From: an uncultured Bacteroidales bacterium | GTDB taxonomy: Bacteria > Bacteroidota > Bacteroidia > Bacteroidales > Paludibacteraceae | Length of the DNA: 49,977 nucleotides | Assembly: GCA_903901975.1 (NCBI GenBank) | Contig: CAIUTB010000152.1 | Location: 1 to 49,977, forward strand | Direction of reading: 5' to 3' | Shown: piece by piece, positions 1,944-49,631 of the stretch | Layout: each line of letters opens with the position of its first letter | Position numbering within the stretch: the stretch's first letter is position 1 | Notes under the pieces: model-generated | Told to the model about the DNA's origin: nothing | Database searches by the model: none | What the model saw: the letters and a program-made list of their open reading frames with translations, nothing else | Translations under genes and position numbers: made by a program

Positions 1944-2474
1944 TTATTTTTCACTCATCTTTTTCAATCGCGAAAGTCCTAAATCCCAGTCTTTTCCCAT
2001 ATTTTTTTCCAAATTCATAAATAAAATCATGATATTAACTGGATAAGGCATTCCGCCACTCATTCCCCAGGTCGCTTTGGTCGTATTTCCATCGGCAAGC
2101 AACTTTACATAACCTTTCCCATGACTCTCCCGTGGTGTTATGAAATCGAGACTGGTTTCGAATAAAGTAGGTTTCTGTACATTAGTAATAGTCTGACTGC
2201 CAATTCCAACCACTTTGCCATCCCAGCTTTGTTTTGCACCAACTGTACCATCAACGCCGGTTAATCCTTTTTTCATGTTGGGATCGTGATCATTCCATGG
2301 ACTCCATTTATCCATTGCAGTTAAACTGCCCGTTTTTGTCCATACTGAATCAATTGGGGCATTAATGGCAATCGTTTTCTCGTAAGTAAATTCTTTAGGT
2401 ACAAAAAGTGCAACAAGCAATACAAGTGCAATTATTGAAGCAAGTACAATTCCGATAATTTTAAGTGCTTTCAT
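1944..2474 (-). CDS. SRPBCC (polyketide cyclase-like) family protein, membrane anchored
   Basis: The 176-residue product starts with one hydrophobic segment (about residues 4-25, IIGIVLASIIALVLLVALFV). The rest is a START/SRPBCC-type domain: TYEKTIAINAPIDSVW opens the fold, MDKWSPWNDHDPNMKKG follows, and a C-terminal helix ends in LSRLKKM. Such domains bind hydrophobic ligands in a deep pocket, but no ligand can be inferred. The predicted topology places the domain outside the cytoplasmic membrane or anchored to it. It precedes the dioxygenase gene in the same direction with a 30-bp spacer, so the two probably share a transcript; a functional link is only a guess. Confidence 0.8.
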   Translation of the reverse strand: MKALKIIGIVLASIIALVLLVALFVPKEFTYEKTIAINAPIDSVWTKTGSLTAMDKWSPWNDHDPNMKKGLTGVDGTVGAKQSWDGKVVGIGSQTITNVQKPTLFETSLDFITPRESHGKGYVKLLADGNTTKATWGMSGGMPYPVNIMILFMNLEKNMGKDWDLGLSRLKKMSEK

Positions 2475-2605
2475 TTTCTTTGTTTTTTAAATTAATTGTA
2501 ATGTGAAAATTATTATTGAAACAGTTTTAAATCCCCAAAAGTTTAAAATCATTTATACTGTTAGTAATAAATTTATTTTTATTGGAAAATATATTACTTA
2601 CGGGT

Positions 2606-2635
2606 TTTGTAATTCTGCCATTTCGTGTATCTTTG
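2606..2635 (+). promoter_or_regulatory. Promoter of the gamma-carbonic anhydrase gene
   Basis: TTTG at 2606-2609 and TATCTTTG at 2628-2635, 18 bp apart, match the Bacteroidota primary sigma consensus (TTTG-N19-TAnnTTTG). The start codon follows 20 bp later at 2656. Confidence 0.7.
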
Positions 2636-2655
2636 TCATTTGTAAATTTTAAAAG

Positions 2656-3177
2656 ATGGCATTAATAAAATCGGTGCGGGGATTTGATCCGCAATTCGGA
2701 AAAGATTGTTACTTAGCTGAAAATGCTACAGTTGTAGGCGATGTTATTATGGGTGACGGTTGCAGCGTGTGGTTTAATGCAGTTTTGCGTGGGGATGTAA
2801 ATTCCATTCGTATTGGCAATCACGTTAATATACAGGATGGCTCGGTTTTGCATACTTTATTTGAAAAATCGGTTGTCGAAATTGGCGATTATGTCTCTAT
2901 TGGTCACAATGTAACAGTACATGGAGCTAAAATAAATAATTACGCTTTGATTGGCATGGGCGCCACCTTGCTTGATTATGTCGAAGTGGGCGAAGGCGCT
3001 ATTGTGGCTGCCGGTGCTTTAGTCTTGAGCAATACAAAGATTCCAGCGTTTACCTTGTGGGCGGGAGTTCCGGCTAAATTTATCAAAAATGTGGAACCGG
3101 AACAATCGAATGAAATGAATCGGAAAATAGCTCATCAATATGCTATGTATGCAGGTTGGTTTAAAGAAGAAAAATAA
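2656..3177 (+). CDS. Gamma-type carbonic anhydrase family protein
   Basis: This is a left-handed parallel beta-helix protein of the gamma carbonic anhydrase/YrdA/PaaY family. Hexapeptide repeats run through most of the 173 residues (for example VVGDVIMGDGCSVWFNAVLRGD). The three family zinc-ligand histidines are recognisable at about H66, H84 and H89 (LHT, GHNVTVHG). Proteins of this subfamily form trimers with metal sites at subunit interfaces. Many lack measurable carbonic anhydrase activity, so hydration of CO2 is possible but unproven. It has its own canonical promoter and stands 38 bp before the DUF5687 permease gene. Confidence 0.9.
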   Translation: MALIKSVRGFDPQFGKDCYLAENATVVGDVIMGDGCSVWFNAVLRGDVNSIRIGNHVNIQDGSVLHTLFEKSVVEIGDYVSIGHNVTVHGAKINNYALIGMGATLLDYVEVGEGAIVAAGALVLSNTKIPAFTLWAGVPAKFIKNVEPEQSNEMNRKIAHQYAMYAGWFKEEK

Positions 3178-25277: not shown

Positions 25278-27132
25278 TTTTTGACGCTAATTCTGCTCTG
25301 TTAAGTCTTTCCAAACTTTCTTTTTGATTTTGAACCACAAATTTTCGATTGACATAAAGTGCTACCTGATTAGCGAAAAGTTCAACAATTTCAGGGTTTT
25401 GAAGAATGGACACAGCATCAAAGTACAAGCAAAAATCTCCGATACGTTTGTTTTTTCTCGAGATATTTACAATTGCTATTTCTCCCAGATTCAGCGTCTT
25501 CTCTATTATTTTTGAAATTGTTTTTGGTAAAACCTTCCCAATTAAAGCCGGTAAATTTTCAAATTTTGTTATAATATTCGCTTTTATACTTTCATCCCTT
25601 ACCCGATCAAATTTCCAAATTTTATCTTTCAGATTATAGCCCATAAATTGTGCTGCCCGTGAATAAATATCGTTCATTCCCGACATGGCAACAGTTCTGA
25701 AATCAAGTCCGTTTGGTTCGAACAAATTAAAAGAAGCATATTTTGCCCCTGATATTTCCCTCATTTGTTCACAAAGGTTTTCGTAATCTATATCAACTTC
25801 TGAATCTTCAATTAATACAGAATTATTTTCAAGCAAAATATTTAATAATTTCTTGTTTTTTAAAATCTTTTCTTCAGCAATTTTTCGATCATTGATATTC
25901 CGGAAATTAATCAGAATGGATTCTACATTGGGGTCGGCCAATAAATTACTAATAGTACTTTCAATCCACAACCATTCACCATTTTTATGCTTAAACCTGT
26001 ACTCGATGATTGGCACATAAGTCGAATCTTCTAACAATTTTGTCAGATGAACTAAAACCCCTGCTAAGTCATCAGGGTGAGTAATATCATTGGGGTGAGT
26101 TGAAATCAAATCAACTAATTCATATCCAAACATTTTCAATGCATTTGGACTGATATATTCAAACAATCCATTGCTGTTTAAAAGGACAAAACCATCGGGT
26201 GATTTTTCGATTAGGGCCTGATAATGTTTGCTTACTCGTTGAACCTCATGCTGTGCAGCTTTTTTATCCTGAATATCAAAGCAATGTCCAATATATCCGA
26301 TAAATTCACCCAAACTGTTATAGTTGGGAGTACCCATATCTATCAACCATTTGTATTCACCGCTGGCATGCCTTAAACGGTATTCCATACTAAATGCTTC
26401 GCGCTTATCAAAGGCTGTGACATAAGTTTCCAGGCAATGATCAAAATCATCGGGGTGTACACCTTCCGCCCATCCGTTACCAAGTTCCTGATTTAAGGTT
26501 CTGCCTGTAAACTCAAGCCAGGGTTCATTGAAATAATTACAGAGTTTATCAATACCTGATGTCCAGATAAGTGCCATCCCATTATCTGCAAGTGCATGAT
26601 ATTGTGCTTCCTTTTCCTTTAAAGCTCTTTCAGTAAGTTTTCGCTCTGTATTATCCTGAATTGATGACCGTAGTCCTATTACTTCGGCATTATCAGAATA
26701 AATAAGTCTGTCCATTACAAGAATAGATATTTTCGTTCCATTCTTCCTTACAAAATCTCTTTCGAAAGGCGTTGAACTTATCTGATGTTTTTTCAACTTT
26801 TCCGTTATCACTTCTATCGAAAAAGCTTTATCCGCCCCTAACTCCCAGATAAATTGTCCTTTTAGCTCTTCAAAAGTGTAACCAAGCATGTTTAACTCGG
26901 TTTGATTCATACGTGTGATACGGCCTTCTAAATCAATTTCATGATACCCAATTGGAGCATTTTCGAATAAATCGATGAATTCTAACTCTTTTTGAGCATA
27001 CTCTATTTCTCTTTTTTTACATTCACTAATATCACCTGCCTGTTCGTTGAATCTTTTCAGGTCATCGGTTTCATCCATTGACTTATTTAGGTCGAATGCT
27101 ACACTTATTGTGGACTTAGCTAATTTTTTCAT
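25201..27132 (-). pseudogene. PAS-GAF sensor protein, N-terminal part (frameshifted)
   Basis: The N-terminal 620 or so codons give three PAS domains (starting near 48, 170 and 300) and a GAF domain (about 425-605, including ISGAKYASFNLFEPNG and a final LFANQVALYV helix). A fourth PAS opens with AELASKIG. The frame then turns into non-PAS sequence (QLGISFRYKDNACVGG) and stops, while the correct PAS continues one frame over. A single extra base in GGG at 25273-25275, or in the T-run at 25278-25282 (plus-strand coordinates), explains this. Repaired, the protein would have about 1260 residues with eight PAS and one GAF. It is the first gene of the leftward block, with TGTAG sites upstream. A sequencing error at a short homopolymer is possible. 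Confidence 0.82.
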
Positions 27133-27351
27133 TGAAAAAAGGATAAAGATAATTACTTATCAGATGTCATATATTCTCCTACATTTACGGCTAAAATTTG
27201 TAAAATCTGATTATGTCTGGCAAATATAAGCATAATTAATTCTACTAAATACGCAATTCTTATGTCTTTTCAAGTTAAATCTGTATTAATTACATTATTT
27301 TATATAATAACACAAACTTATTGTAAATCAGCAGATTAAAATGTAGTAAAA

Positions 27352-27370
27352 TGTAGCATATAATGCTACA
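27352..27370. promoter_or_regulatory. Perfect 19-bp palindrome, candidate response-regulator operator
   Basis: TGTAGCAT-ATA-ATGCTACA is a perfect 8-3-8 palindrome. The same layout recurs, one mismatch off, at 14870-14888. Its length and symmetry fit a dimeric NarL-type regulator. Confidence 0.5.
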
Positions 27371-27587
27371 GTCATCAAACAATTGTACTACATGACTAAA
27401 TGTTAACTAAAAAAACTAACTTTGTCCTACTGGTTTAAGAGTATTTGAATATCCAAAAAATGCTTTAAAAATATCGGGATTTCAAGTTAAAAGGTATATA
27501 TTCATTAAAATGGTAGACCAAAATAGAAATTATGTTATAAAACACACTTTTAGTCCGCATTTACTAGGTTTGAATTAAATAATGACT

Positions 27588-27680
27588 TATCTTTGCATCG
27601 TGATTTTTTCATAGTATTAGATTTAAGGTTAACAAAGATTGGTAGTATGCCGTGAGGCAAGCTACCTTTCGTCTTTTATA
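27588..27680 (+). ncRNA. Possible small RNA or leader element upstream of purD
   Basis: A TATCTTTG box at 27588-27595 (with TTTG at 27569-27572, a short 15-bp spacing) would start a transcript near 27602. A compact hairpin follows: GGTAG at 27641-27645 pairs with CTACC at 27662-27666. Inside it GCC/GGC closes a GTGA tetraloop across a small symmetrical internal loop. The sequence CTTTCGTCTTTT follows and could end the transcript. I do not recognise the motif as a known riboswitch. Confidence 0.25.
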
Positions 27681-27797
27681 GGGGTTTAGAATTTCAAAAC
27701 ACAGTTTTCCACTCTTATTTATATTTTCCATATCCTTCATTTCTTCCCTCCGTTTTTCAAATCCTCAAAATTTCTAATTTCCTAATCCTAATTTCGT

Positions 27798-27828
27798 TTT
27801 GAAAATTGCTCAATTTTCGCTACTTTTG
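27798..27828 (+). promoter_or_regulatory. purD promoter
   Basis: TTTG at 27798-27801 and TACTTTTG at 27821-27828, 19 bp apart, match the Bacteroidota consensus exactly. The start codon lies 26 bp after the -7 box. Confidence 0.78.
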
Positions 27829-27854
27829 CAAGTCAAAATTCTAAACAAAACCCT

Positions 27855-29123
27855 ATGAATATCCTTCTCCTTGGCTCAGGCGGACGCGAACATGCAATGG
27901 CTTGGAAAATTGCCCAAAGTCCAAAATTATCAACGCTTTACATCGCTCCGGGAAACCCGGGAACAGCCACCGTGGGAACCAATCTGCCCATTGCTGCCGA
28001 TAATTTCCCGGCATTGAAAACTGCTGTATTGAATTATAAAATTGATATGGTGGTGGTTGGTCCTGAAGATCCACTGGTAAAAGGAGTGGTGAACTTTTTT
28101 GCAGAAGATGCCGATTTAAAGAATATCCCGGTTGTTGGACCTGACAGGGTAGGTGCTCAGCTCGAAGGAAGTAAAGATTTTTCAAAACAATTTATGTTCC
28201 GCCACAATATACCAACTGCCGGATATTTAAGCGTTACAGCAGGAAATATTACAGAAGGAATTGACTTTCTGAAAAGTCTGCAAGCACCTTATGTACTGAA
28301 AGCCGATGGGTTGGCCGCCGGAAAAGGGGTATTGATTCTGAGTGATTTGAATGAGACAATTTCGGAATTGAAAGCCATGCTCGATGGAAAATTCGGTGCT
28401 GCCAGCAAAACGGTGGTTATCGAAGAGTTTTTAGAGGGTATTGAATGCTCGGTTTTCGTGATTACAGACGGAAAAAACTATAAAATTCTGCCAGAAGCAA
28501 AGGATTATAAACGCATTGGCGAAGGTGACAAAGGTTTGAATACCGGTGGTATGGGTGCTGTTTCGCCAGTTCCATTTGCCAATGCTGAGTTTATGCAAAA
28601 AGTGGAAGACCAAATTATTCGCCCAACGGTAGAAGGACTTTACAGCGAAGGAATTATTTACAAAGGTTTTATCTTTTTCGGACTGATAAAAGTAAAGGGT
28701 GAACCCTTCACCATAGAATATAACGCCCGGATGGGTGACCCGGAAACTGAAGTGGTGATGCTCAGATTAAAAAGTGACTTTGTCGACTTGCTCGAAGGTG
28801 TTGCCCACGGCAATCTGAATGAAAAAATGCTTGAATTTGATGAACGCACAGCAGTTACAGTTATGCTGGTTTCGGGTGGTTATCCCGAAGAATTTGAAAA
28901 AGGAAAAGTAATTTCGGGCATTGAAAGTATTGAGGATAGTATCATTTTTCATGCCGGTACAACAGAGAAAGAAGGTAATATAGTTAGTAGTGGCGGTCGT
29001 GTGATGGCAATTAGTTCCTATGGCAATACAAAAGACGAAGCATTAGCCGTCTCTTTTTCTAATGCTCAAAAAATACAATACGAAGGAAAATACTTTAGAC
29101 GCGATATTGGGTTTGATTTATAA
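27855..29123 (+). CDS. purD: Phosphoribosylamine-glycine ligase (GAR synthetase)
   Basis: PurD joins phosphoribosylamine to glycine using ATP, the second step of purine synthesis and the one just before PurN. The 422-residue product is full length. Visible landmarks are the N-terminal [14 protein letters not shown], the domain-B ATP-grasp region with [15 protein letters not shown], the family signature [11 protein letters not shown], and the C-terminal domain with [11 protein letters not shown]. The start follows a canonical promoter by 26 bp. The downstream spacer to the NtrC-like gene is 51 bp and has no terminator, so readthrough is likely. Confidence 0.97.
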
Positions 29124-43352: not shown

Positions 43353-43577
43353 ATGGCAGAACAATCAACAGATCCCTTGCACGGCATTACACTTAAAGCC
43401 ATACTGGAGAAACTTGTGGCTTATTATGGCTGGGAGGAACTGGATAAACGGATTCGTATAAATTGTTTTAGCATAAATCCCAGCATCAATTCCAGTTTGA
43501 AATTTTTGCGTAAAACACCCTGGGCAAGAACGAAGGTGGAAGAATTATATATTTCGTATATTGTTAGTATTAAGTAA
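43353..43577 (+). CDS. VF530 family (DUF2132) small DNA-binding-like protein
   Basis: A 74-residue protein fitting the VF530/DUF2132 family: DPLHGITLKAILEKLVAYYGWEEL at the start, then INCFSINPSINSSLKFLRKTPWAR and a short C-terminal helix. The family has a compact helical fold and was annotated as possibly DNA-binding; its function is not established. It is the last gene of the alaX-mtgA-lipB operon, 5 bp after lipB. No clear terminator follows. Confidence 0.85.
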   Translation: MAEQSTDPLHGITLKAILEKLVAYYGWEELDKRIRINCFSINPSINSSLKFLRKTPWARTKVEELYISYIVSIK

Positions 43578-43691
43578 TTTCACTCAGGTGTTATAGTTAT
43601 GAACAGTTACTTTTATTATATATTGATAATCAGACCATTAAATTGTTCATAACTCTGTTGAAAAGTTGTTTGCAAAAACGGGCTAAAAAAC

Positions 43692-43723
43692 TTGCAAATC
43701 GCATCTTCAATATAGTATATTTG
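43692..43723 (+). promoter_or_regulatory. Promoter of the long non-coding RNA
   Basis: TATATTTG at 43716-43723 is a perfect TAnnTTTG. CTTG at 43691-43694 lies 21 bp upstream as a -33 box. Transcription would start near 43730, at a UUCG-capped hairpin. Confidence 0.6.
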
Positions 43724-43728
43724 CAGCA

Positions 43729-45126
43729 TGAGTTTCGACTCAAAACACAAAATACGTGTTGAGCGTTCTTTGAAATACTGATACATCAAAAAAAGTCAAT
43801 AATTAAATATTAACTCCAGATTCAGCGGAGCAAATTTATTTTATGTGAAGAACGAACTGACTATTAATACAAGTTATCTCCGTAATTGTTTACGCAAGTA
43901 AGCAATGAGATGTATAACAATGCTAATGGTTTTACGGTCTCTTACTAAAATAGAATTCCCAATGGGTCAGACTCTATAAATATAATTATGGTGCGTTTGA
44001 ATAAAACGTAACCCTGTCTCTAAGACAGGAAAGCCGGGTAGTCGGGGAAGGGAATTCTATAAAAAGTAATTCGTTACTTATATTCATTTTCGGTCACAAA
44101 AGTAGAAACAGCAATGTTTTGAACTTGTTTCAAAAAATTCCGGACGAGCAGTACAAAAAAATTAAAAGTCGCGGTAGTTCAGTATTTAATAATTTAAATG
44201 AGTTTATTATTGAACGAATTTTATTTTTTGGTAATACTACCAACAGAGTAAAACAGTCGAGAGTAAATGAACTGTATTAGTAAAAGCTTAATAGCGATAT
44301 TGAGATTATGCTAATAAGATGAAGCCAACGAAGTCAGTGGGTCTGAATGCAAAAAATTTAATACCAGAACACAGGAAAAACCGAAACCGCTTTAACAGGG
44401 GGTAGGCGTTCGACCGACGTGAGAAGGGATAAATTGTCGGAGAGCTAAAGGGATAGGCAACTATCCACAGATGCGAAACCGTAAAAAGCATCAGAGTCAA
44501 CCAATTTTCAGGGTAATTTTGCAATAACAAAGTGACTGTAAAGACACCTATATTGTCAAAATCTGGAGCTATGCAAATAGTGGTAAACCCGGAATGTTGG
44601 AAATGATAACGAACAGCAACTCATCCACCGCTATTTTTATTGGTCAAACAATGAAAATATTGATACAGAATTTCAATTTCTATTGACAGGTGATTTGAGT
44701 GCTTTGAGTAGAAGTGATTCGACTGTAAAACCGTAAAGGAAGATAAAGCGGAACACAAACTTTGCAGCAACAGGTTTAAAAAAACTAACGAGCAATCGTT
44801 TGTAAACAAATCTGATACAATTTGGATATTGTCAACAAGTGGTTTTGAAAGAAACTGCATACAACAAGCTAAATTTAGTAAAGTTAAAAACGAATCGAAG
44901 TCAGATGTGGCTGCAATAAGCAATCTGCGGAGTAGGAGAGAATGGACAAATTGGTAAAACAGTTTGGAAAATTAATCCGAAGCAGAAAGATACAGCAGTA
45001 ATATGCAGGCTAACCGCCGGCATTTTAAAACAGATCCAAATCAAACTCATGGTGGCTAAATCAGTATTATAAGATATTAACATAGTAATTGTGTTCAAAA
45101 GAGGGTGCCCTAAAAGGCACCCTCTT
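43729..45126 (+). ncRNA. Candidate long structured non-coding RNA (about 1.4 kb), class unknown
   Basis: No frame here codes for a recognisable protein, and the plus strand is purine-rich. The 5' end is a hairpin with a TTCG loop (43729-43742), then an AACAC/GTGTT hairpin, then a boxA-like GTTCTTTGAAATAC (43765-43778). Other helices include ATTGTTTAC-GCAA-GTAAGCAAT (43885-43906, GNRA loop) inside ATCTC/GAGAT; TAGAATTCCC (43951-43960) with GGGAATTCTA (44050-44059), enclosing CCTGTCT/AGACAGG and CGTTT/AAACG; AAGTAA-TTCG-TTACTT (44064-44079); GGTAGT/ACTACC (44173, 44236); GGATAG-GCAA-CTATCC (44451-44466); and a 10-bp helix 44575-44584 with 44627-44636. The loop of the GATGC/GCATC hairpin (44470-44492) contains ACCGTAAAA, complementary to 43930-43938. 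It is not tmRNA, RNase P RNA or a group II intron by any motif I can find. Confidence 0.55.
45098..45126. terminator. Strong hairpin at the end of the long RNA
   Basis: AAGAGGGTGCC and GGCACCCTCTT form an 11-bp perfect stem with loop CTAAAA. The T-tract is short on both strands (the minus strand has CTCTTTT). It would separate the long RNA from the DhaL-DegV gene. Confidence 0.6.
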
Positions 45127-45256
45127 ACTGTTAATATACCCTCTTGCACAAATACGGCATTTTCTTGTATCCCCATACGCTCGATTCCGTATTGAAATAC
45201 TCATTCAAATAAAACTTATTTGTCTTTATACTGTTTGTTGTTGTAAATACAGCTCA

Positions 45257-47050
45257 ATGATAAATAAACCAATCTCGCAACTTGACGGTCGCCTATTATA
45301 TTACGCTTTCAAGGCAGGCGGTCAAAGAATTCTCCAACAACAAGCTGAAATAAATAAAATCAATGTTTTTCCCGTAAACGATAAAGATACCGGTACTAAT
45401 TTAGCATCCACTATTCGTTCTGTGTTAGATAACACAACACCACACAAATCCTATAAAACAACCCTGAATCGAATTGCTGAAAATGCATTGATGGGTGCAC
45501 GTGGAAATTCGGGGATAATTTTTGCTCAGTTTCTTTATGGAATGAATCTTGGAACAACTGAAAAAGGAATTATTTCGGTTTCGGAATTTGTTGATAGTGT
45601 GCTAAAATCAATTCCATTCATGTACGAGGCTGTTGCAGATCCGATTGAAGGTACTATGATTACAGTAATTAAAGAATGGTCGGAATCAATTGCCTCTAAT
45701 CCAAAATCAACTGATTTCCGTAAATTTATTGTAGAATCGCTCGAAGCTTTGAATAAATCGTTGGAAGAAACGAGGCATATGATGAAATTACTTCGACAGA
45801 CTAATGTGGTTGATGCCGGTGCTAAAGGGTTTGTCGTTTTTATAGAGGGAATAATTGAATTTATACGAAGCAATAATATTCGAAAATTCGTATCACAACC
45901 AAATGAAACTTTAGTTTTGCTACATGATGAAGACCTACACGAGGGTGAAATAACGTTCAGGTATTGTACAGAGGCAATTCTAAAAAATCTGAAGGTGACA
46001 AGGTCTGAACTTCAGAATCTTCTTAGAAAAGATGGCGATTCCGTAGTTGTGGCGGGTTCTGAAAGCCTTACCCGAATTCATATTCATACAAATGACCCGG
46101 CTGAATTGTTTTATAAATTGAAAGATGTTGGAACAATTGCTTTTCAAAAGGCCGACGATATGATTCAGCAAAATGAAGCTGCCACCAATAGGAAGTGGAA
46201 TATTGCATTGGTTACAGATTCCACCTGTGACTTGTCGCAAGACTTAATTGATTTTTATCAGATTTATACCCTTCCGTTGAATATCAATTTTGGAGATAAT
46301 CATTATCTGGACAAGGTAACCATAACGCCCGATCATTTCTACGATTTACTGGAAAGTAGTCCTGATTTTCCCAAAACGTCACAAATAAACGAACATAGCT
46401 TTGTAAATCTCTATTCTCATTTGGCATCCCATTATGATGCTATTATTTCTATTCATCTTACTTCGCATTTTAGCGGAACCTATCAGAATAGCGTAAAAGC
46501 TGCAGAAAAGATATCTTCTGAATTCAATAAACCGGTATATTCAATTGATTCTAAAACCCTTTCAGGTTCGCTGGGATTGTTGACCCTACGTATTGCAAAG
46601 TCTATAGAAGCCGGTTTGTCACCTTCTGAAATAGTAGAATCTGCAAATAAGTGGAGATCTGATGCTAAGATATTTGTCAGTGTAAAAGACCTGAAGTATA
46701 TGATAAAAGGTGGGCGCGTTTCCAAACAAAAAGGCTTTATAGCCAATCTGCTGAACGTCAAACCTATTGTGTCGATGGCCGAATCAGGGAAATCCGTTTT
46801 ATTTGGGCAGGCTTTTAGTCAGCAGGCTAATATAAATAAGGTAATGAAGCATATCCTGAAAATTAGTGTGGGAAAAACAGTGTGGAATTATATTGTACTG
46901 CATGCTCATAATGAGTCTGGTGCAGATATTTACATTCAAAAAATGCTCGAACTAACAGGCAAAAGACCTGTTTCAGTAGTTGATATCTCACCGGTAATTG
47001 GAATGAATGCAGGCAACGGAACAATTGCAGTCGCTTTATTGTTTGATTAA
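45257..47050 (+). CDS. DhaL (DAK2)-DegV fusion, fatty acid kinase-like
   Basis: A 597-residue protein that appears to fuse the two halves of the fatty acid kinase system. The N-terminal DhaL domain (about 1-200) is FakA-like, with FPVNDKDTGTNLAST (usually PDGDTGTN; both metal-ligand aspartates remain) and GARGNSGIIFAQFL. A middle domain (about 205-300) follows. The C-terminal DegV domain (about 310-597) is FakB-like, with LVTDSTCDLS, FPKTSQINEHSF, SIHLTSHFSGTYQNS, and IGMNAGNGTIAV at the end. FakB holds a fatty acid while FakA phosphorylates it to acyl phosphate, a precursor for phospholipid; plsY lies downstream, which fits. I chose ATG 45257; the frame stays open to 45089 but the extra part is low-complexity. 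Confidence 0.9.
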   Translation: MINKPISQLDGRLLYYAFKAGGQRILQQQAEINKINVFPVNDKDTGTNLASTIRSVLDNTTPHKSYKTTLNRIAENALMGARGNSGIIFAQFLYGMNLGTTEKGIISVSEFVDSVLKSIPFMYEAVADPIEGTMITVIKEWSESIASNPKSTDFRKFIVESLEALNKSLEETRHMMKLLRQTNVVDAGAKGFVVFIEGIIEFIRSNNIRKFVSQPNETLVLLHDEDLHEGEITFRYCTEAILKNLKVTRSELQNLLRKDGDSVVVAGSESLTRIHIHTNDPAELFYKLKDVGTIAFQKADDMIQQNEAATNRKWNIALVTDSTCDLSQDLIDFYQIYTLPLNINFGDNHYLDKVTITPDHFYDLLESSPDFPKTSQINEHSFVNLYSHLASHYDAIISIHLTSHFSGTYQNSVKAAEKISSEFNKPVYSIDSKTLSGSLGLLTLRIAKSIEAGLSPSEIVESANKWRSDAKIFVSVKDLKYMIKGGRVSKQKGFIANLLNVKPIVSMAESGKSVLFGQAFSQQANINKVMKHILKISVGKTVWNYIVLHAHNESGADIYIQKMLELTGKRPVSVVDISPVIGMNAGNGTIAVALLFD

Positions 47051-49266: not shown

Positions 49267-49631
49267 CAGTCCGTTTCGCTCAAATTTTTTCGAAATGAGT
49301 AAAACAAAACAAGTTATCAAATCGGGAGCGATTAGATAATCACACAAGAAGTCTTGATAAACAAATCACTGTGAAGTGGTCTTACTAATTTGAAATTGCA
49401 AAATTGAGAATTGGAAATTGTCAAGCATCGATCTTTGGAAATACATGAACAACAAATAATGTAGTATAAGGAAGGGAACATTTTTTACAAATGGGAGATT
49501 TTCTATAGTTTGCCGTTGACCTTTAAAAGTTGGCAGTTAAATACAGAGAATCAAATTATTTTTTTTTTATACCACGTCAATTTTCTAATAAATCAAAAAA
49601 GAGATAGCATCCGAGCAAATAATAAAAAGAT

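Follow-up and report, generated by a model that had tools for sequence, protein, structure and literature searches.

Comparative sequence analysis identifies positions 43692-45126 of the window (the whole 49,977-nucleotide stretch of DNA analysed here) as the putative stand-alone gene of a giant structured non-coding RNA, which forms a new class with no match in Rfam. To our knowledge, bacterial RNAs of more than 1 kb are very rare once rRNAs and introns are set aside. A sequence-only reading had proposed a long structured non-coding RNA at this place, and had been unable to assign it to a named class. Both points are borne out: the region has homologues in which the frames are broken, covariation over 14 sequences is strong, and the search against Rfam found no covariance-model match in the stretch at the gathering threshold. 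A permissive search (E≤10, positions 43500-45260) returned 6 sub-threshold matches, none of them to OLE, GOLLD, ROOL, an intron or an rRNA. The comparison with these three RNAs made in that reading is an analogy only, given the absence of a model match. Among the publications listed as matches (on structured RNAs of Paludibacter or Bacteroidales, GOLLD, ROOL, OLE, boxA and DnaA boxes), judged by title or the opening of the abstract, we found no account of this RNA.

Extent, distribution and coding potential

The non-coding unit occupies approximately 43593-45135 of the window and includes a promoter at one end and a final hairpin at the other (Table 1). By Pfam, its neighbours are lipB-VF530 on one side and a DAK2/DegV gene on the other. 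Sequence conservation starts at about 43593, some 100 bp before the promoter, and stops just past the final hairpin. The gene for the VF530 DNA-binding protein (43353-43577), which lies between lipB and the RNA, was seen in this position in the window's own genome only among 30 lipB loci.

A DNA search of 60 genomes, the window's own included, gave matches in 17. Fifteen of these, counting its own, belong to its genus, which we take to be Paludibacter, and the other two are short, weak matches outside it. Identity was 72-81% across almost the entire stretch in nine other genomes, and five more of the genus matched in part. Under strict filters, a covariance model of the core (R1) was positive in 16 of 48 genus genomes and a model of the control element plus leader (R2) in 19 of 48, own included in both counts, with exactly one R2 match in each of the 19. 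The remaining 29 genomes, among them the single-contig G016, had no R2 match under these filters, and the RNA therefore appears to be dispensable. Models and alignments were built without certain sequences: A1 and R1 without G018, G069 (a near-duplicate of G026) and G034, whose RNA is truncated by the contig end, and A3 and R2 without L070 and G013. Eighteen sequences, window included, span both ends of the RNA.

Outside the genus the RNA was hardly encountered. Run over 295 genomes of the order (own included), R1 produced elsewhere only two weak partial matches (G246, 31 bits; G150, 25 bits). An exact core pattern searched in one genome per species, over 84,980 species, retrieved 15 stretches, 13 of which contain the RNA by blastn; the other two, L024 and L036, sit within genes and are not the RNA. 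There was no blastn match to the stretch in 50,697 phage records, no exact core pattern in viral contigs, and no match to the stretch in the plasmids searched. Elsewhere in the window, positions 27600-27680 gave a borderline Rfam match to the Bacteroidetes sRNA family BTncRNA_FopS (56.1 bits, with a cut-off of 56).

The absence of a protein frame from 43692-45126, as read from the single sequence, also holds in relatives. When five long open stretches of the window (a set that does not include, for instance, a 99-codon minus-strand stretch, 44904-45200) are compared with 13 homologues, stops occur in 64 of the 65 combinations, the sole open one being a single stretch in L063. Gaps in the alignment are not a multiple of three in 715 of 823 cases. 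The predicted product is an RNA and not a protein, with no coding frame kept among those tested. The size of the region, its AT-rich sequence and its GNRA loops would also fit the remains of a decayed protein gene, a group II intron or an rRNA. However, the stops speak against a decayed gene, the Rfam search found neither an intron nor an rRNA match in the stretch even at E 10, and compensatory mutations, which imply that selection acts on pairing, speak against decay in general. We find such an origin scarcely credible. A group II intron would be expected to match an intron model and to contain a reverse transcriptase or its remains; here there is no Rfam intron match and no long frame kept among those tested.

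Conserved fold and modular architecture

Covariation was examined in 14 full-length sequences, window included; the shorter sequences of G026, G028, G069 and G068 were left out. RNAalifold predicted 387 pairs with an energy of -449.7 for this alignment, compared with means of -211 (sd 12.8, best -238) in 14 refolded tree-simulated alignments and -192 (sd 5.6, best -204) in 14 refolded column-shuffled ones. The real alignment contains 246 double-change (compensatory) cells. Refolded nulls averaged 49 (tree-simulated, maximum 75) and 76 (shuffled, maximum 94), and the highest number in any null was 110, reached among 100 tree simulations scored on the fixed structure. On that fixed structure 89.6% of cells pair, vs. 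61.5±1.3% in the 100 simulations (null double changes 86±10), a comparison biased toward the real alignment because the structure came from it. No null run reaches the real alignment in fold energy, in number of double changes or in the fraction of cells paired. The structure thus far exceeds chance, and its covariation is above the phylogenetic expectation.

Seven helices had been picked out from the single sequence, and four of them are conserved. These are the GCAA hairpin at 43885-43906 (116/122 cells paired, 13 double-change cells), the TTCG hairpins at 44064-44079 (65/70, 3 double-change cells) and 43729-43742 (66/67, with both sides changed in G028), and the strong final hairpin (Table 1). 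The other three are not conserved as drawn. The 10-bp closing helix 43951/44059 (91/140 cells paired) and the 10-bp helix 44575/44627 (76/133) are near chance, because the tree-simulated null itself pairs at a mean of 62%, and the GCAA hairpin at 44451-44466 pairs in only 38 of 83 cells; close to it, RNAalifold places a hairpin in another register (44450-44468, 82/97 cells paired). The best-supported long-range helix, which joins a boxA-like leader to the 3' end, was absent from that list.

Table 1. Features of the RNA locus and loci of a second RNA (window coordinates, except where a locus is named)
Feature	Position	Strand	Observation
Upstream control element	43593-43684	+	TTATNAACA box 43597-43605, inverted TGTTNATAA box 43644-43652, then TGTTGAAAAGTTGTTTGCAAAAAC
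Promoter, TTG-N21-TATATTTG	43692-43723	+	TATATTTG in 17/17 loci, window included
RNA (predicted)	43726-45126	+	about 1.4 kb; relatives range from about 643 to 1710 nt
UUCG-capped leader hairpin	43729-43742	+	4 bp paired in 16/16 sequences; G028 has double changes at two of the pairs
Second leader hairpin, AACAC/GTGTT	43746-43761	+	97.5% of cells paired; one double change
boxA-like element, CGTTCTTTGAAATACTGAT	43764-43782	+	TCTTTGAA in 18/18 sequences, window included
Closing helix, 5' strand	43767-43782	+	pairs with 45060-45074
GCAA-capped 10-bp hairpin	43884-43907	+	128/136 cells paired; double changes seen at 4 of the pairs
Core domain, most conserved	43964-44180	+	hairpins 43992-44010, 44013-44029, 44064-44079
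Core closing pairs, GACU/AGUC	43970-43973/44167-44170	+	kept in 14/14 rows
Middle domain, expandable, fast-evolving	44203-45043	+	reduced or missing in G028 and G068; enlarged in G027
Closing helix, 3' strand, ATCAGTATTATAAGA	45060-45074	+	pairs with 43767-43782
Final 10-bp hairpin, 3' end, terminator-like	45100-45125	+	135/139 cells paired; 11 double-change cells
Second RNA, L217	about 4970 down to about 4540	-	
Second RNA, L213	4714-5150		
Second RNA, L218	3857-4270		

Members of about 643 to 1710 nt share the leader, the closing strands and the final hairpin, and differ by contraction or expansion of the middle. The core is less constant: R1 hardly detects it in G018 (34.7 bits) and finds nothing in G068, which makes a single fixed catalytic core unlikely. 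The G068 member (L220, about 2364-3006, approximately 643 nt) has the leader, closing strands and final hairpin, with no R1 core match. In the RNA of G026 (L015), two segments of 80 nt each (2295-2374 and 2392-2471) are 80% identical to each other, which suggests that the expandable middle may grow by module duplication. By eye, several relatives have a second hairpin and a T run after the final hairpin; a simple terminator scan did not include the final hairpin (45100-45125) among its calls.

GNRA and UUCG loops occur in GOLLD, ROOL and OLE, and the RNA described here resembles these classes in being long, highly structured and capped by such loops. It differs in its greater length of 1.4 kb, in having its own leader and end closure, in having been seen in one genus only, and in the lack of an Rfam match. 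Unlike GOLLD and ROOL, which are borne by phages or prophages, it had no match in phage records, viral contigs or plasmids, and no phage family was recognized in 17 neighbouring proteins. PMC12286853, which deals with three classes, presents GOLLD as the largest; many GOLLD RNAs are longer than 800 nt, and GOLLD and ROOL are described there as having no known cellular role.

Control element, leader and end closure

The earlier reading had placed a consensus promoter at 43716, and the TATATTTG sequence found there recurs in all loci compared. We take TTG-N21-TATATTTG to be the Bacteroidetes-type promoter consensus. A promoter scan matched 43692-43721, although its total of 8 matches compares with 6.4 expected. 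Together, the conserved promoter and the terminator-like hairpin lead us to infer that the RNA is transcribed. Upstream of the promoter lie a TTATNAACA box and an inverted TGTTNATAA box, which resemble DnaA boxes. The left box is present in 17/17 loci and the right in 16/17, with TGTTCACAA in G002 (both partly by eye), and they are followed by a TGTT-AAAAGTTGTT-like stretch. The spaced pair occurs twice in the window's own genome, here and once within a sigma-factor-like frame (by eye), and a reversed control pattern is equally frequent; rarity is therefore no proof, and the argument rests on conservation. The boxes suggest that transcription may respond to DnaA or a similar regulator.

The leader begins with a hairpin right after the start, UUCG-capped in most sequences, in the position of the boxB-like stem of rrn leaders. 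The second leader hairpin and a pairing of 43744-43751 with 45088-45095, an alternative given by RNAalifold, may exclude each other. Next comes the conserved element that we call boxA-like, on the assumption that boxA in other bacteria resembles TCTTTGAA-type sequences. We stop short of calling it boxA, as its match to the leader of the window's own 16S rrn (about 49429-49462) is modest and gapped (local score 29; 30 of 2000 dinucleotide shuffles scored as high). Within its own genome the exact 14-mer recurs at no rrn-type site; its one other match there, near a hydrolase-like frame, was taken as chance.

Part of the boxA-like element pairs with the 3' end. In the 14 sequences (RNAalifold), an inner helix of 8 bp joins 43775-43782 (ATACTGAT) to 45060-45067 (ATCAGTAT) with 109/112 cells paired, and an outer helix of 6 bp joins 43767-43772 to 45069-45074 with 78/84. 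None of these pairs shows a double change in those 14 sequences, which therefore cast no vote. Four sequences not used in the fold (G026, G028, G069 and G068) served as a held-out set. Read from the letters, the clade of G026, G028 and G069 has TTACTG on the 5' side and CAGTAA on the 3' side, a compensation of A-U to U-A, with two of the eight inner pairs lost at the far end of the helix. G068 has 5' ATACGGAT and 3' ATC(A)CGTAT, a compensation of U-A to G-C with one bulged base. The four held-out sequences hence contain two independent compensations, over a span of about 1.3 kb in the window and about 0.6-1.1 kb in the short forms. On this comparative evidence the boxA-like 5' leader pairs with the 3' end and closes a molecule of about 1.3 kb. 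Another candidate, 5' CATGAGTTT with 3' AAACTCATG, is perfect in the window and was rejected; by eye, its 3' side is variable, but its 5' side is nearly invariant.

The arrangement of a leader hairpin, a boxA-like sequence soon after the start and a helix between 5' leader and 3' trailer recalls pre-16S rRNA, although there is no rRNA inside the present molecule and the sequence resemblance is modest. According to PMC10250234, the rrn leaders of E. coli contain boxB and boxA together with a leader-trailer helix that is essential, and whose disruption abolishes subunit translation activity; the closing strand there is boxC, whereas here it is the boxA-like strand itself. We favor, with moderate confidence, a model of a boxA-antiterminated, end-closed RNA scaffold. 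Transcription would start at the TATATTTG promoter. As in rRNA operons, the leader (hairpin, hairpin, boxA-like sequence) would recruit the NusB/S10 antitermination machinery and thereby let a transcript that is not translated evade Rho. The emerging 3' end would then capture the boxA strand, which would stop antitermination and fix the molecule in its closed fold, in a manner comparable to the pre-16S leader-trailer helix. The mature RNA would serve as a trans-acting scaffold, either of RNA alone or of RNA and protein.

A second RNA, an origin of replication and movement between lineages

R2 also matched nine genomes of other families, at 47-57 bits, among 393 genomes of the order (own included). 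These loci (L211-L219) have the same kind of boxes and promoter at nearly equal spacing, followed by a different conserved start, CATCAAGTGAGGGATAAAAGGC, and no long frame. The second RNA is about 330 nt long and ends in a hairpin CGGGAA..TTCCCG. An alignment of eight sequences over 330 columns has a fold energy of -82.7, vs. -36.7±4.1 in 40 shuffles. Rfam gave no match at the gathering threshold in these loci, and R1 found nothing above 14 bits in three of them. A dnaG-related gene is the next gene downstream, convergent, in 5 of 9 loci (three identified with Pfam and two through their blastn similarity to those), and L212, the sixth such contig, ends inside matching DNA. The two RNAs share the type of upstream boxes and promoter and a strong conserved structure, but differ in sequence, start, length (the second is shorter), host families and the dnaG gene downstream.

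Boxes of this kind could instead mark an origin of replication, with the RNA assisting its opening. The inverted TTATNAACA-type boxes are present in almost all loci, the second RNA with the same element adjoins dnaG in five loci, and GC skew in the window switches sign at about 27 kb. However, the sign of the skew is constant across the RNA in G005 (175 kb read, with the RNA at 83 kb) and G069 (187 kb, with the RNA at 136 kb), on which ground we reject this reading for Paludibacter, and an origin is needed by all genomes, yet 29 of the 48 genus genomes lack an RNA match. We therefore regard an origin here as highly improbable. GC skew near the second RNA in G344, and in stretches of G016, gave no decision either way. 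In four of four contigs the RNA strand is the locally G-rich strand. At about 27000-28000 of the window, the skew turns from negative to positive along with gene strand, in AT-rich intergenic DNA upstream of a purD-like frame (by eye), possibly an arm or origin boundary.

The neighbours of the RNA are ordinary chromosomal genes, and they vary. Pairs of RNA loci have a flank gene (within 1.5 kb) in common in 5/120 cases upstream and 2/120 downstream, far below tmRNA (21/66 and 8/78) and RNase P RNA (57/105 and 69/105); the genomes compared are 16 of the 19 with the RNA, 13 of 17 for tmRNA (12 for upstream genes) and 15 of 17 for RNase P RNA. This variability, together with the patchy presence of the RNA (19/48 genus genomes), is what a mobile or selfish RNA element would produce, that is, an ORF-less unit of control element, promoter, RNA and terminator moved by a trans factor at no benefit to the host. 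The RNA data also reject the clade of G000, G005, G017, G032 and G071 (p-AU 0.0009), which has a support of 98/97 in a protein tree built on two linked genes, lipB and mtgA. Conversely, the protein data reject G013+G024+G017+G071 (p-AU 0.0005 in 30 genomes, 0.028 in 10), a group chosen after a quick RNA tree (SH-aLRT 92) and not resolved in a careful 10-genome RNA tree. Within the genus, the RNA has had another history than lipB+mtgA and than the genes beside it. The variable neighbours and the conflict between the RNA and lipB+mtgA trees make movement probable, and the RNA has probably moved between lineages within the genus, a conclusion with moderate support from these comparisons.

Selfish mobility is a stronger claim, and several observations weigh against it. 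Each of the 19 positive genomes has a single match; exact flanking repeats of at least 9 bp are absent save for one 10-mer in 1 of 16 loci; and no transposase, integrase or phage family was found among the neighbour proteins scanned (7 from the window and 10 from elsewhere), the remainder being judged by eye. RNA distances partly follow those of rnpB (Mantel r 0.62, a value reached by 2 of 5000 permutations), a result that is only indicative since the rnpB set contains an overlong G019 extraction of 2929 bases, and those of lipB+mtgA (r 0.56, 37 of 5000), so that much of the descent is vertical. Both flanks are common to G026 and G069 and to G018 and G032, and the RNA data reject neither a wider seven-genome grouping (p 0.07) nor G013+G024+G002 (p 0.31). 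A selfish element is in our view unlikely, while still deserving serious attention. Forty-one genomes, own included, have lipB; mtgA adjoins it in 29/29 other lipB loci compared, with VF530 not beside it, and no precise empty site was found at these 29.

The promoter element is unexpectedly common to a second structured RNA in other families, and the likeness to rRNA biogenesis makes an expression route for very long untranslated RNAs directly testable. Returning to the end-closed scaffold, the widest interpretation is one that we offer tentatively and think doubtful as a whole. This giant RNA class, longer than GOLLD, ROOL and OLE, would borrow ribosomal antitermination and end closure and be driven by a replication-linked (DnaA-box-like) promoter, and the same promoter would drive at least two structured RNAs across Bacteroidales, one of them beside a primase gene. 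If true, Bacteroidales would possess an unrecognised layer of RNA linked to replication or growth state.
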